Below, piece by piece: positions 2,607-54,724 of a DNA stretch of 64,000 nt. The notes under the pieces were generated by a model, which saw only the letters and a program-made list of their open reading frames with translations, had not been told where the DNA came from and did no database searches. This DNA comes from Phytoactinopolyspora halotolerans. Its GTDB lineage: Bacteria; Actinomycetota; Actinomycetes; Jiangellales; Jiangellaceae. Positions within the stretch are counted from its first letter, which is position 1. Each line of letters starts with the position of its first letter. The translations under genes were made by a program, and so were the position numbers. The DNA lies in the NCBI RefSeq assembly GCF_010550675.1, contig NZ_JAAGOA010000004.1:310001-374000 (forward strand), read 5' to 3'.

Positions 2607-4220
2607 TCAGTAGCCCTTCACCTCGGGCCAGGCCAGCTCGAAGCCGTCCTGGACCAGCTCGTTCTGGAACGCCGCCAGCCGCGACTCGTCCGCGCGCACC
2701 TGCGCGGGCACCAACCCGCGCGAGAGGCAATGCGCGGCCAGCGCACCGGCGACCTCGCCGATGTTCCACTCCACCGGGTGCAACCGGTAGCAGCCGTTGG
2801 TGATGTGCGTGGTGCCGATGTTCTTCGACGCCGGCAGCAGATTGCGTAGCCGTACCGGCAGCAGCGCGCCCAGCGGGATCTGGAATGGGCTGTTGGCGAC
2901 GTCGATGTAGTTGTCGCCGCCGGTCGACGGGTGCAGGTCGATGCGGTACATCCCCACCCCGACCGAGTCCGGGTAGGCGACGGCGCCCCGCTGGCTACGC
3001 ACCGCCAGCGAGAGATCCTGTTCCACCACCGTGTACTGGGCCTTGATCCGGCGCGACTCGCGGATGTACGGAGCCTTGGCGAGGCCGTCGTCGGTGCCCA
3101 TCACGTCCGGGCGCAGCCGCAGCCCGGGCCAGCCGGTCCCGCCGTCCGGGCGGGGTGCCTCGGTCTGCAGCCAGTACAGCATGCTCAGCGACAGCTGCCG
3201 CCCGCCCTGCAGGTGCTCGGCGCGCTCGTCATCGGAGACGCCGATGATCGGCCCGGGCAGGTAGTCGATCATCGGCCAGTTGACGAGCGTCACGTCGCTG
3301 GCGACGAATCCAGGCTCGAAGAGGTCCCGGCAGACGATCCGGCGGAACAGCCAAAGGTCCTTGTCGCCGGCGTCCAGGCTCTGGTCTGCGATCACCGGGC
3401 CGGTGTGCCCGTGTGGCACGAACGTGCGGGTGTACGGCTCGAGCGTGCGCGGGTCTGGCGCGGTGAGGCTGAGCAGCTGGTCGGGCCAGTACGGCGGACG
3501 GTAGCTCTGCCAAAATCCGTACTGCTCCGGCTTGTCGATGGTGTGGTCCTCGCCGTCGCGATGCTCCACCGCGAAGACCCAGGAGAACGCCTGCATGTTC
3601 GCCGGCTGTGCGACGGCGGGCGCGCTCGGTTCGCCGGTGTCGGCGGAGGATTCGAACCCGGTCACGTGCTCGGCCTCGGCCAGCGGCAGCAGGTCGCCCT
3701 CCTCCGTGGCGTCCAGGATGTACGGCGCGTCGACGACGAGCGTCTCGTCGCCGGGCCCGCGCAGCCGCACCGCGGTGACGGTGTCACCGTCGACGTCCGC
3801 GCCGACGGGCCGGTACTGGAAGAACACGCGCAGCCGGCCGGCGGAGAGGTACGGCGCCACCATGCTTTCGATCACCGACGCGGCCACGCGCGGCTCGTGG
3901 CAGAGTCTGCTCACCCGGCCCTGGCCGGGGTTGAGCTCGACGTCCGCGCGGGCGGCGCTGGTCAGCGGGTACCAGGTGCGGTAGTAGTCGCGGACGGCGT
4001 CGCGGAACCGGCGATAGGAACGTGTGCAGCCGAACCGCTCGATCCACGGGTGTTCGTCGGGTGGGACTCCCTGGCTGGTCAGCTGGCCGCCTAGCCAATC
4101 GGTCACTTCCGTGACGACGACGGACCGTCCGCGCCGCAGCGCCGCGAGGGCGGCGGCGACGCCACCGACACCTCCGCCTACGACCAGCAGGTCGGTCGAG
4201 ATCACCTGTTCACTACTCAC
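2607..4220 (-). CDS. FAD-dependent oxidoreductase (FAD_oxidored family)
   Basis: A 537-aa flavoprotein. The N-terminal dinucleotide-binding motif LLVVGGGVGGVAAALAA (about 11-27) is followed by a basic/acidic strand end VVVTE. An ILDATEEGDLLP segment, typical of the FAD_oxidored group, lies mid-protein, and a second FAD contact is likely in the C-terminal LLPASKNIGTTHITNG region. GTG 4220 is preferred to an upstream in-frame ATG because the upstream codons fall in repeat DNA and GAGGAAG precedes the GTG. The stop is 2 nt from the aldolase start. Such enzymes often sit in glycoside-utilisation operons and probably oxidise a sugar or sugar acid; the substrate is unknown. Confidence 0.85.
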   Translation of the reverse strand: MSSEQVISTDLLVVGGGVGGVAAALAALRRGRSVVVTEVTDWLGGQLTSQGVPPDEHPWIERFGCTRSYRRFRDAVRDYYRTWYPLTSAARADVELNPGQGRVSRLCHEPRVAASVIESMVAPYLSAGRLRVFFQYRPVGADVDGDTVTAVRLRGPGDETLVVDAPYILDATEEGDLLPLAEAEHVTGFESSADTGEPSAPAVAQPANMQAFSWVFAVEHRDGEDHTIDKPEQYGFWQSYRPPYWPDQLLSLTAPDPRTLEPYTRTFVPHGHTGPVIADQSLDAGDKDLWLFRRIVCRDLFEPGFVASDVTLVNWPMIDYLPGPIIGVSDDERAEHLQGGRQLSLSMLYWLQTEAPRPDGGTGWPGLRLRPDVMGTDDGLAKAPYIRESRRIKAQYTVVEQDLSLAVRSQRGAVAYPDSVGVGMYRIDLHPSTGGDNYIDVANSPFQIPLGALLPVRLRNLLPASKNIGTTHITNGCYRLHPVEWNIGEVAGALAAHCLSRGLVPAQVRADESRLAAFQNELVQDGFELAWPEVKGY

Positions 4221-4250: not shown

Positions 4251-4477
4251 CTTTGCAATGCACACACGGACGCATCACCCTCCTTGACCGGCTGGCAACG
4301 TGGAGGCTTGGTGTCGCCGAGGCGGTTCCGTGGAAGCTTGGTGTCGTGGCGGCTGGCAACGTGGAGGCTTGGTGTCGCCGAGGCGGTTCCGTGGAGCCTT
4401 GGTGTCGTAGCGGCTGGGTTGCGTGGAAGCTTGGTGCTATCCGGCCCGTCCGTTGCGTATATGTGTGCATTGCAAAG
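4251..4477. repeat. 227-bp island: inverted terminal repeats around a tandem array
   Basis: The ends are 24-nt inverted repeats (4251-4274 and 4454-4477) agreeing at 21 of 24 positions; the right end, reversed, contains TGCAATGCACACATATACGC. Between them lie about 2.4 copies of a 61-bp unit. The same terminal motif recurs at 53.6 and 54.6 kb. The island fills the gap between the GH63-like and FAD genes and holds no credible gene. Confidence 0.8.
4290..4440. repeat. 61-bp tandem repeat, about 2.4 copies
   Basis: Units start at 4290, 4351 and 4412, the last partial. Each full unit contains two copies of a GTGGARGCTTGGTGTCG core about 30 bp apart, giving five cores in all. The intervening stretches are repeated too, so this is a tandem repeat and not a CRISPR. 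Confidence 0.85.
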
Positions 4478-4493: not shown

Positions 4494-6740
4494 TCATGGG
4501 GTGACCAGACGGAACGCGGTGGGAGTGCCGGCGGACGGAAGGTCGATCTCCACCAGCTGCGCACGACGGACGGAGCGAACGACTGATGTGCTGTCGATGG
4601 TGACCTGCACCGTTTCCGTGGCCTCCGGCGGCGGCGCGACGAGCACCCGGCCCGGCGATCCGTGCGCCGTGGCCACGCCGACCACACGAGACGTCGTGCG
4701 CTGGTATGCCGTCACGACGACGTGCGGATCCGTGTCCAGCAGTGTCGTCGCCCCTCCGATGTCGTCACCCGGGGCGTCGTCACGGCCGGCGTCGTCGTGG
4801 AGAGCGACGGTCAACCTCTCCTCCGCCCGCACCGTGAGCCGTCCCTCGCCGAGTACGATCCCGGCCAGCTCAGCTGGTGTGCCCGGATGGGCGAACCGCC
4901 AGCCCTCTGGTCGCGGGTCGGCGATCTCCTGGAAAGCGAGCAGCGCCAGCAGCGAACCCCACGACATCAGCCCGTCGGATCGGGCCGCCAGCGGCCGGAC
5001 GTCCTCACCCGGCTGGATCGGGTAGTTCTCGCGCACGTGGCTATGCCGATCCCACTCATCGAGGAACAGCTCCAGCAGCGACTCGACGGCCTCCCGGGCC
5101 TCCCGTTCGAACCCGCCACGACGCAGACCTTCCACGGCCAGGTACGCCATCGGCGCCCACACCCGGCCGCGCCAGTACCGGGTGTTGAACCCGGAGTCGT
5201 TCCGCGCCACGCTTGGCAGCGGCGGCTTGCCGCCCAGGACGTCGGGCGAGAGCAGATGATCGACCAGCGATCGTGCCTGCTCGGCGTCCGGCACATCGCC
5301 GAGCAGCGGGTAGAGCATGGTGGGCGCGATGTGCTCGGAGAACTCGCCGCCGGCCCACCGGTTCCGGTACTCGCCGTGCTCGGCGTCCCAGAGCAGCCGG
5401 TTGATCTCAGCCCGTGCTGACTCGGCCTGCGTGCGCAGTTCCTGTGCCGTGGACGCATCGCCGAGTAGCTCGGCGATGGCGGCGACCGCCTCGGCGTCGG
5501 CGACGTGCAGCCCGTTCAAGCCGACGTCGGCGAGGTTCTGGGTGTGCGTCTGTGGATCCCAGGTGACCTCGTCGTACATGGGGGAGTCGTCGAGACCCTC
5601 ACGCTTGGTCCGGTCGATCAGGATCTCCAGGTTCTGCGAGTCCGGATCGCCCTCGATCGGGTCCGAACCCCAGGCCAGCAGGCCGAACGGCCCGCGCCGC
5701 GCCGACGGCCACCAGCGATGCCAGCGCAGCAGGTCGTCGTAGCAGCCCTCCAGGAGCTGCCGGTCGCGGGTCTCGTCCGACAGCCCGCTGCCCAGGTACG
5801 CCTTGAGCACGGTGATCCCGCCCACCGGCGACTGCGAACGGTCGTCGGTGCGGCCGCGTTCGTCGGAGACCCGGTTGGGCAGCATGCCGCGCTCGTCGGC
5901 CTGGTCGAGGATCTGCCGGAAGATCCCGAGCGCGTACGACGAGTCGATCCAGCCGGCCACCAGCCCAGTGAAGAACGTGTCCCAGACGTGCAACGCCCAG
6001 CGTCCGTAGAAGCCCTCGCGTTCGGCGCAGACGAAGTCGCGAGAGGTCGGGGTTAAGACGCGGTCGATGTCGGGCGCGTAGATGGTGTTCCAGGTGACCG
6101 AGCGCGTATACGCGTCACCCGCGTTGCCCAGCCAGCCGCCGGTGCGCATCCGGGTGGCCACCGCGTCGCCCCGAGCCGAGGCTACGTGCTGCATGATCGC
6201 CGGCGCCGTGAGTGGCTCCTCGTCGGCCTGCCCGACGTGCACGCACAGCGGGTCGGCGTCCGCGGCGGCGAACGTGAGCCGGAGGACGCCGTCGTCGCTG
6301 GTGTCCACACTGGTGACCGGCGCGGTGACGGCCAGCCGCCATGGCTGCCCGGCCACCAGGATGCGTACGACGCGCCGGCCATCGGCGACGTCGAAGGTCA
6401 GGGCGCCGTCGAACCCGGGCATCCGATCGACGATCACCACGAGATCCGCGGGTGTGTCGCCGGCCGCGGAGGCGACGGCGTCGAGCACGTCGCCCCCTCC
6501 GGCGAACTGGAGGTCCAGGGTGGTGTCCAGCGCCGCGACCCTCACCTGGGCGTAGCGGCCGTCCACGGTGTGGTGACCGAGCCGTTCCAGGCCATGCCGC
6601 CAGGTGAACGTGTCGGCGACCGTCCCGTCGGCGCCGGCCAGCGCGAACCGGAGCCGCACGCCGCTGGGTAGGTGCGCCGAGCCGGTGTGGTACTGCACGT
6701 CCCACGTGTTCCACCCGGCCGGCTGAGGTCGGTATCCCAT
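4494..6740 (-). CDS. GH63-like (alpha,alpha)6-barrel glycoside hydrolase
   Basis: 748 aa. The N-terminal third (1-220) is beta-rich, as in bacterial GH63/mannosylglycerate-hydrolase-like enzymes. From about residue 235 an alpha-helical toroid begins with ALHVWDTFFTGL (Asp254 in the WD signature, position of the general acid) and continues with DERGMLPNRVSDE and GRVWAPMAYLAVEGLRRGG. No signal peptide is visible, so it acts in the cytosol on an imported oligosaccharide. Start: of two nearby in-frame ATGs the second (6740) has AAGGA at 9 nt, while the first (6746) is too close. It shares a transcription unit with the binding protein 53 nt upstream. Confidence 0.8.
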   Translation of the reverse strand: MGYRPQPAGWNTWDVQYHTGSAHLPSGVRLRFALAGADGTVADTFTWRHGLERLGHHTVDGRYAQVRVAALDTTLDLQFAGGGDVLDAVASAAGDTPADLVVIVDRMPGFDGALTFDVADGRRVVRILVAGQPWRLAVTAPVTSVDTSDDGVLRLTFAAADADPLCVHVGQADEEPLTAPAIMQHVASARGDAVATRMRTGGWLGNAGDAYTRSVTWNTIYAPDIDRVLTPTSRDFVCAEREGFYGRWALHVWDTFFTGLVAGWIDSSYALGIFRQILDQADERGMLPNRVSDERGRTDDRSQSPVGGITVLKAYLGSGLSDETRDRQLLEGCYDDLLRWHRWWPSARRGPFGLLAWGSDPIEGDPDSQNLEILIDRTKREGLDDSPMYDEVTWDPQTHTQNLADVGLNGLHVADAEAVAAIAELLGDASTAQELRTQAESARAEINRLLWDAEHGEYRNRWAGGEFSEHIAPTMLYPLLGDVPDAEQARSLVDHLLSPDVLGGKPPLPSVARNDSGFNTRYWRGRVWAPMAYLAVEGLRRGGFEREAREAVESLLELFLDEWDRHSHVRENYPIQPGEDVRPLAARSDGLMSWGSLLALLAFQEIADPRPEGWRFAHPGTPAELAGIVLGEGRLTVRAEERLTVALHDDAGRDDAPGDDIGGATTLLDTDPHVVVTAYQRTTSRVVGVATAHGSPGRVLVAPPPEATETVQVTIDSTSVVRSVRRAQLVEIDLPSAGTPTAFRLVTP

Positions 6741-6793
6741 GATCATCAATCCTTGGCCGTACTGTGGTCGGTCTGATCGTTCACGATCACGGG

Positions 6794-53614: not shown

Positions 53615-53702
53615 CGCCTTTGCAATGCACACATATACGCGTGCAGGACGCTCAATCGCTTGCCCGGTCGTAGGAGTGTGCAATGCGCACATATACGCGT
53701 GC
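53615..53702. repeat. Direct copies of the TGCAATGC repeat (left bound of XRE cassette)
   Basis: A copy of TGCAATGCACACATATACGC extends over 53615-53640 (26 nt) and recurs 58 bp on at 53679-53702, the shared 24-nt portions agreeing at 23 of 24 positions. The first copy is matched exactly, in reverse, at 54557-54582. Confidence 0.8.
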
Positions 53703-53850
53703 GCCGCCGCCGCGATCCGGACGCAACAACAGAGCGCAACGCCTGCATCATGTACGCAGCGGCGGCGTTCGCGCAGGTTGCGTTACGGTGCGTCTGCGAT
53801 GTCGGGCACGGTGCGGGTTCGGGCACGGTGCGGGGCCGGGAGAATGTCGG

Positions 53851-54402
53851 TTACCGCCCGGCATGGGGTGGTGGGCCAGGATCGCGCGGTCGTCGCGCGT
53901 TGCGGAACTGCTTGACTCTGACCTCCCATTGGCTGAGTGCTCGCTTGGCATCGCGGTAGCCGCGCGAGCGATGGTACGTCTCGGGCGGACGAGCGAGCCC
54001 GAAACACGAGCCCCACCAGTCGTCCGGGTCTTCCGGGTCCAGAATGACATCGAGATGTGCCGGAAACTTCTTGTTCCCGCCGTCGAGAGTCTCGTCCCAG
54101 ACGCGCATCGGCTGCATGATGCGACCGTCCTCATCGACAAGAGCCAAGGCGAAGCGGGCCGGCGCGAGGAGCTTCATCAGGACGCGAAAGCTCGGTACCA
54201 GCGTTCCGGCTTCGATTCGCGCGATGGTCGACGCGGCCACGCCTGTGTCTTTGGCGAGTTCACGCTGGCTCATGTCGGCGCATCGGCGCACCCTGCGGAC
54301 CACGCCGGGAATGGTGTCCACGGTGACGCGAGGCAGCGTCGGCAACGGCGGAACAATATTCGGGTGGCCGGTATCGCCTTCACCTTGGTGATGATCTTTC
54401 AT
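53851..54402 (-). CDS. XRE-family regulator inside a repeat-bounded cassette
   Basis: 183 aa. Helix-turn-helix: VRRVRRCADMSQRELAKDTGVAASTIARIEAGTLVPSFRVLMKLLAPARFALAL. The C-terminal part (MQPMRVWDETLDGGNKKFPAHLDVILDPEDPDDWWG) is a conserved actinobacterial extension of unknown role. Start ATG 54402. It is flanked by perfect 26-nt inverted repeats, and no other gene lies between them. Confidence 0.85.
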   Translation of the reverse strand: MKDHHQGEGDTGHPNIVPPLPTLPRVTVDTIPGVVRRVRRCADMSQRELAKDTGVAASTIARIEAGTLVPSFRVLMKLLAPARFALALVDEDGRIMQPMRVWDETLDGGNKKFPAHLDVILDPEDPDDWWGSCFGLARPPETYHRSRGYRDAKRALSQWEVRVKQFRNARRPRDPGPPPHAGR

Positions 54403-54724
54403 GGCCTCAGTGTCCAACTGACGTCGCTCGGGTTCAATAGAAGCGACTAGGTTGTGGATAACTGCGTTAGTGTGCACACACGTCTGGGGCTCTGCTTGTG
54501 GATTAGTGCTCGCCGTCATCCCGAGCGGGTCCGACCCTCATGCTCGTGATGGCGTTGCGTATATGTGTGCATTGCAAAGGCGCTTGGGGAGTGGTCGGTG
54601 GAGGGGGCGTATGCCCGACATGTTCAGAGTTGATCGCGTTCATGGTCACGATGGGCACCTCCGGCCGCCACAGTAGAGCTGGACGGGACATGCGGCGGCC
54701 GGCGCGCTCCTTGAGCGGACCGGG
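54403..54724. other. 322-nt intergenic stretch
   Basis: No gene. It holds the right inverted repeat of the XRE cassette (54557-54582) and one DnaA-box-like site (54453-54461). Otherwise nothing notable. Confidence 0.45.
54557..54582. repeat. Inverted copy of the TGCAATGC repeat (right bound)
   Basis: The reverse complement of this 26-mer is identical to 53615-53640. Together they bound about 970 bp containing only the XRE gene. The same motif forms the right end of the 4251-4477 island. Confidence 0.85.

Follow-up and report, generated by a model that had tools for sequence, protein, structure and literature searches.

The two inverted 26-base repeats around an XRE gene of Phytoactinopolyspora halotolerans (Jiangellaceae) are the arms of one copy of a dispersed hairpin repeat, found 20 to 70 times in each of several soil bacteria. 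A small gene for a predicted DNA-binding protein lies beside or inside one copy in five lineages from two bacterial families, suggesting a mobile-repeat system with a regulator-like protein where known systems use a transposase.

A hairpin family with one gene-bearing copy

We first examined the window, a stretch of 64,000 nucleotides, in which the first-pass annotation had described perfect 26-bp inverted repeats with an XRE regulator as the only gene between them, an additional near-identical direct copy, and the same motif at the ends of a tandem-repeat island, without a known transposase. The observation was confirmed. The left arm at 53615-53640 (+; CGCCTTTGCAATGCACACATATACGC), on the 3' side of the XRE gene, is the exact reverse complement of the right arm at 54557-54582 (-), which lies about 40 bp upstream of the annotated XRE start. 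A search for the 20-mer TGCAATGCACACATATACGC with up to 3 mismatches gave five matches in the window, at 4254 (+, 3 mismatches), 4455 (-, 0), 53621 (+, 0), 53679 (+, 1) and 54557 (-, 0), whereas dinucleotide shuffles of the window gave none. The direct near-copy at 53679-53698 corresponds to a second direct copy of the arm at 53677-53698 (+), with 2 mismatches in 22. The only recognisable gene between the arms is the XRE/HTH open reading frame at 53851-54519 (-), identified by a Pfam HTH_3 match (E 1e-8). Since its conserved part comprises residues ~62-217, the true start may lie downstream of 54519. The whole gene-bearing element spans 53618-54579 (962 bp, CTTTG...CAAAG). The motif also bounds the tandem-repeat block at 4251-4477, a second copy of the hairpin element of 227 bp between two minus-strand genes (2607-4205 and 4494-6746), with its left arm at 4251-4273 (+) carrying 3 mismatches and its right arm at 4455-4477 (-) exact. 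The loop of this second element, at 4276-4450, is a tandem repeat of CGTGGAGGCTTGGTGTCG units, and a similar 28-bp stretch is present in a loop of P. alkaliphila (locus L289). A search of the window against Rfam at gathering thresholds returned nothing.

We then searched the whole genome (G000; 7.30 Mb, 65 contigs) with the 22-mer TTTGCAATGCACACATATACGC, allowing up to 3 mismatches. As a result, 46 matches (23 + 23 on the two strands, 28 exact) were obtained, against 0 for the reversed control, and nearly all of them fall into convergent pairs of the form CTTTGCAATGCACACATATACGC-loop-GCGTATATGTGTGCATTGCAAAG. The 21-22 paired elements run from CTTTGCAATGCACACATATACGCAACGTTGCGTATATGTGTGCATTGCAAAG (52 bp, without a loop), through elements of 53-245 bp, to the 962-bp copy with the XRE gene in its loop. 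The usual form is a hairpin of 50-70 bp. The interpretation of the first-pass annotation, which offered either a passenger or mobile cassette or the binding site of the regulator itself, was only partly supported. Its own condition for rejection was a generic intergenic repeat with neither a link to XRE genes nor empty sites in relatives; the motif is a generic intergenic repeat, but it has both the link and the empty sites. What does not hold is the picture of one isolated element with 26-bp terminal repeats. A one-off composite transposon or cassette would be consistent with the XRE gene between inverted arms at two non-syntenic loci in two species, but is very unlikely, since the arms belong to a family of ~22 mostly gene-free copies, with no transposase and no recognised target duplication. 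An origin of the short copies from the XRE element by internal deletion, as in MITEs, was also rejected, because their loops share nothing meaningful with the XRE element. DNA uptake sequences were excluded because there are tens of paired copies rather than thousands of singles, and a prophage or TA cassette was excluded by the absence of such neighbours.

Distribution and linkage to the XRE gene

To determine the distribution of the repeat, we searched the Jiangellaceae genomes for CTTTGCAATGNGCAC with at most 1 mismatch on both strands. This gave 43 matches in G000, 34 in P. alkaliphila (G001; its XRE gene lies at the place of record NZ_JAAGOB010000001.1), and 143, 87, 55 and 21 in the Jiangella genomes G009, G010, G019 and G015, respectively, with 0-6 in the other genomes; the copies are scattered along the closed genomes, and the Jiangella hairpins number up to ~70. 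Close XRE orthologs were found in G000, G001, G009, G010 and G014 (which matches Jiangella endophytica NZ_QVAI01000001.1), with a degraded remnant in G015. Among the 20 genomes at least 90% complete, 5 of 6 with XRE or its remnant have 20 or more arm matches, against 1 of 14 without (hypergeometric p about 0.002, not corrected for phylogeny). The exceptions are G019, which has 55 arm matches and no XRE, showing that XRE is not needed to keep hairpins, and G014, which has an intact XRE but only 4 arm matches. In the two species of Asanoa (loci L096 and L097), a genus of the Micromonosporaceae, the XRE gene is about 55% identical and has the hairpin TTTGCTCTGCACCCATATACGCACC...GGTGCGTATATGGGTGCAGAGCAAA just upstream, and this hairpin has 16 and 20 verified pairs in the two genomes, mostly of a fixed 66-bp length. 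Furthermore, in a 395-genome sample of the class, only 16 genomes have an XRE homolog at E<=1e-20, and the hairpin CTTTGCTCTG...CAGAGCAAAG occurs in only two genomes, G094 and G113, both among those 16. Although this pattern was chosen from XRE-linked hairpins, so that the test is not fully independent, most of the copies found lie far from XRE.

The XRE gene is single-copy and sits inside or just downstream of a hairpin in every lineage seen. In G000 and P. alkaliphila it lies between inverted arms (962 and 876 bp, respectively) in the same orientation, with extra direct arm cores on its 3' side in both. No flanking gene is shared, so the unit sits at different places in the two species, which favours mobility. 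In Jiangella G009, G010 and G014 the XRE gene is syntenic, and here and in both Asanoa species it lies roughly 75-180 bp downstream of a hairpin; in G113 a hairpin is also upstream. With about 20-70 hairpins per genome of several thousand genes, we estimate that a given gene would adjoin one by chance in roughly 0.2-2% of cases per lineage, so the recurrence in separate lineages is not chance. The XRE core is under purifying selection, with dN/dS of 0.13-0.21 within the Jiangellaceae (0.08 in one saturated pair) and 0.14 between the two Asanoa. In Jiangella G010, G014 and G015, a ~371-aa gene directly downstream of XRE (L161:8637-9758) is absent together with XRE from G017 and G019. In the genome G289, two XRE paralogs (L312, L313) each have a nearby hairpin containing GGACCTGAGTCC, which is possibly a further repeat/XRE pairing or ordinary terminators. 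Hairpins near the most distant XRE homologs without CTTTGC (L191-L195, L198-L200) may likewise be ordinary terminators and were not used as evidence. Searches for the XRE gene on plasmids, in phages and in IMG/VR gave no match, and a partial scan of IMG/VR for the motif gave only single scattered 14-base matches, one per contig, which we read as chance.

The protein itself was then analyzed. Pfam recognises only HTH_3/HTH_31, a fold of ~60 residues that is HipB/HigA-like by sequence, and the matches in NCBIfam, PADLOC, PHROGs and PDB are also confined to the HTH. The conserved C-terminal block PAHLD...WW...LARPPET...WEVRVKQ is not a named domain in the libraries searched. An AlphaFold prediction from 15 homologs gave a confident HTH (pLDDT about 95), a poorly resolved middle and a C-terminal helix, with no sign of a nuclease fold, and an alignment of 7 sequences gave the same picture.

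Empty sites, coordinated arm changes and genomic position

To test whether the hairpins are present or absent at orthologous places, we compared eight G009 hairpin sites with other Jiangella, relying only on re-aligned loci. At the L133 site G009 and G019 are filled and G014 is empty, at L128 G009 and G010 are filled and G012 and G017 are empty, and at L122 G009 and G019 are filled and several others are empty; many orthologous gaps have no hairpin. In addition, the hairpin+XRE module is missing from G016, where the two flanks are 4 bp apart, and from G013, G017, G018 and G019. These differences may reflect either gain or loss. No target duplication was obvious between the filled and empty sites, although intergenic alignments are ambiguous. 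The window element itself has no clean empty site, because its flanking genes are 11 kb apart or scattered in relatives.

Across 133 elements, the arm of about 25 bp reads TTTGC(AA or TC)TG..CAC/CCC, followed by a 6-bp variable stretch and an inner box, CGCANC; the outer box (TTTGCAATG...CAC) and the inner box are nearly invariant within a genome, and the arm ends are CTTTGC rather than a GTAG-type tag. In G009, positions 1-14 are invariant in 42 of 42 elements except one base, whereas positions 15-20 vary and often change on both arms together, with 23 both-arm changes against 9.3 expected when right arms are shuffled between elements (maximum 18 in 1000). The same excess was seen in G019 (11 against 2.9, maximum 9) and in the genome G023 (15 against 5.0, maximum 12), but G000, G001 and the genome G022 do not exceed their shuffles. 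Orthologous copies provide the strongest evidence. At about 12 G009/G019 loci, position 24 is T on both arms in G019 and C (once A) in G009, every time, and at L150/L283 four stem positions differ in compensated fashion. This requires either arm-to-arm correction plus copy-to-copy homogenisation, turnover of whole hairpins at the same sites, or selection by a binding protein that changed specificity. Tandem arrays were also found: L159:4000-4289 (G009) has 7-8 direct arms at 38-bp spacing ending in one inverted arm, and L158 has a 149-bp tandem duplication of the right arm.

We next analyzed the genomic positions with a simple gene caller of our own. Of the 133 elements, 127 lie outside called genes and 6 within them; 50 lie between convergent genes, 57 between tandem genes (47 of them nearer the upstream stop) and 20 between divergent genes, against 17, 92 and 86 among 195 background gaps of at least 60 bp, and the median distance to the nearest stop codon is 37 bp. 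REP-like repeats and terminators both favour such places, whereas operators do not. The possibility that the hairpins are operators or nucleoid-binding sites of the XRE protein, forming a regulon or a chromosome-organising set rather than mobile DNA, would fit the nearly invariant boxes, the HTH domain and the copy upstream of the XRE gene in every lineage. However, this seems unlikely, since copies other than the XRE-linked one avoid promoters, loops run from 0 to over 900 bp, arms covary, and sites are present or absent at orthologous places. It is also unlikely that the hairpins are transcription terminators made alike by gene conversion, with an incidental XRE link. Their 3'-end position and very stable folds (-39 to -58 kcal/mol) would agree with this, and a second hairpin family of the same design (CATGATCATC, covarying stem, loop, GATGATCATG; 54 bp), multi-copy in Jiangellaceae, fills the same intergenic gaps in species without the TTTGCAATG hairpin (window arms at 6738, 12301 and 20197; L070:9500-9553, L124:6953-7006, L215:1659-1712, L270:2685-2738). 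Nevertheless, none of 266 sides has a U-rich tail, many orthologous gaps are without a hairpin, the outer boxes are fixed letter by letter beyond the needs of a stem, and the XRE linkage recurs in separate lineages.

A REPIN-like repeat with a putative cognate HTH protein

These results led us to propose, with moderate confidence, a REPIN-like family of short mobile hairpins with a cognate HTH protein. The analysis itself established a multi-copy, intergenic hairpin family located mostly at the 3' ends of genes, present or absent at orthologous sites, with coordinated arm changes and homogenisation within a genome, and a single-copy, selectively maintained XRE gene next to or inside one copy in every lineage that has one. 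On the other hand, we infer from sequence alone that the XRE protein binds the arms and probably controls its own gene through the copy beside it, and that the hairpin, as ssDNA or a cruciform, is the unit copied to new intergenic sites, with strand transfer by an enzyme not linked to the locus, because the XRE protein has no visible catalytic domain. In this view, the window element would be the counterpart of a RAYT gene flanked by inverted REPs.

The repeat resembles REPINs of the REP-RAYT systems of Pseudomonas, Stenotrophomonas and E. coli (PMC3116915, PMC2817692) in the inverted doublet of conserved repeats with a variable loop, the dispersed extragenic location, the compensatory changes (clear in G009, G019 and G023), the tandem arrays, the one single-copy gene beside or between inverted copies, and the lineage-specific repeat variants. 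It differs in that the linked gene encodes an XRE/HTH protein and not a Y1 tyrosine transposase, in that the arms are not GTAG-tagged, in that the loop can hold the gene itself, and in that the carriers are Actinobacteria; the words Actinobacteria and Streptomyces do not occur in the GTAG/CGTC survey (PMC3733652). Since the RAYT, a defining feature, is absent at the linked gene in every lineage examined, we do not assign the family to REPINs, but regard it only as something that works like one. CGTC REPs (PMC3733652) are also short palindromic repeats that seem to lack a dedicated transposase, but have a CGTC tag, 8-9 bp stems and 4-5 bp loops, no reported linked regulator, and occur in other phyla. 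MITEs with TIRs share the short, gene-free, intergenic form with inverted ends, while here the inner stems covary, and neither a target duplication nor, at the XRE copies, a parent IS with the same ends was recognised. Searches of a literature collection with few subscription journals and preprints found no description of these repeats.

Alternatively, this may be an ordinary REPIN/MITE family mobilised in trans by an unlinked RAYT or IS transposase, with the XRE gene as a captured passenger or a regulator of that transposase. The REPIN anatomy, including compensatory changes, tandem arrays and singlet remnants (PMC3116915), the hairpins of G019 without XRE and the lack of a nuclease fold in the XRE protein speak for this reading. 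However, we consider it the less likely one, because no transposase is linked to the XRE-bearing copies in any of the lineages seen, whereas RAYT genes are always flanked by two inverted REPs (PMC2817692), a place held here by the XRE gene, and because a pure passenger would not be expected beside a hairpin in Phytoactinopolyspora, Jiangella, Asanoa and G113 with matched motif variants.

A more far-reaching reading, compatible with the data but less likely than not on present evidence, is a two-part repeat system in Actinobacteria, in which hairpin repeats spread, and are kept alike across the genome, under a sequence-specific HTH protein rather than a transposase of their own, with repeat and protein diverging together between families. 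REP/REPIN repeats are explained by RAYT transposases, and some REP families (CGTC) have no known partner. A REPIN-like family whose only linked gene, in two bacterial families, is an HTH regulator would mean that such repeats can be paired with a protein that has no catalytic domain. Furthermore, the genome-wide switch of one arm position on both arms at ~12 orthologous sites makes the concerted evolution of dispersed bacterial repeats directly testable in culturable soil bacteria.
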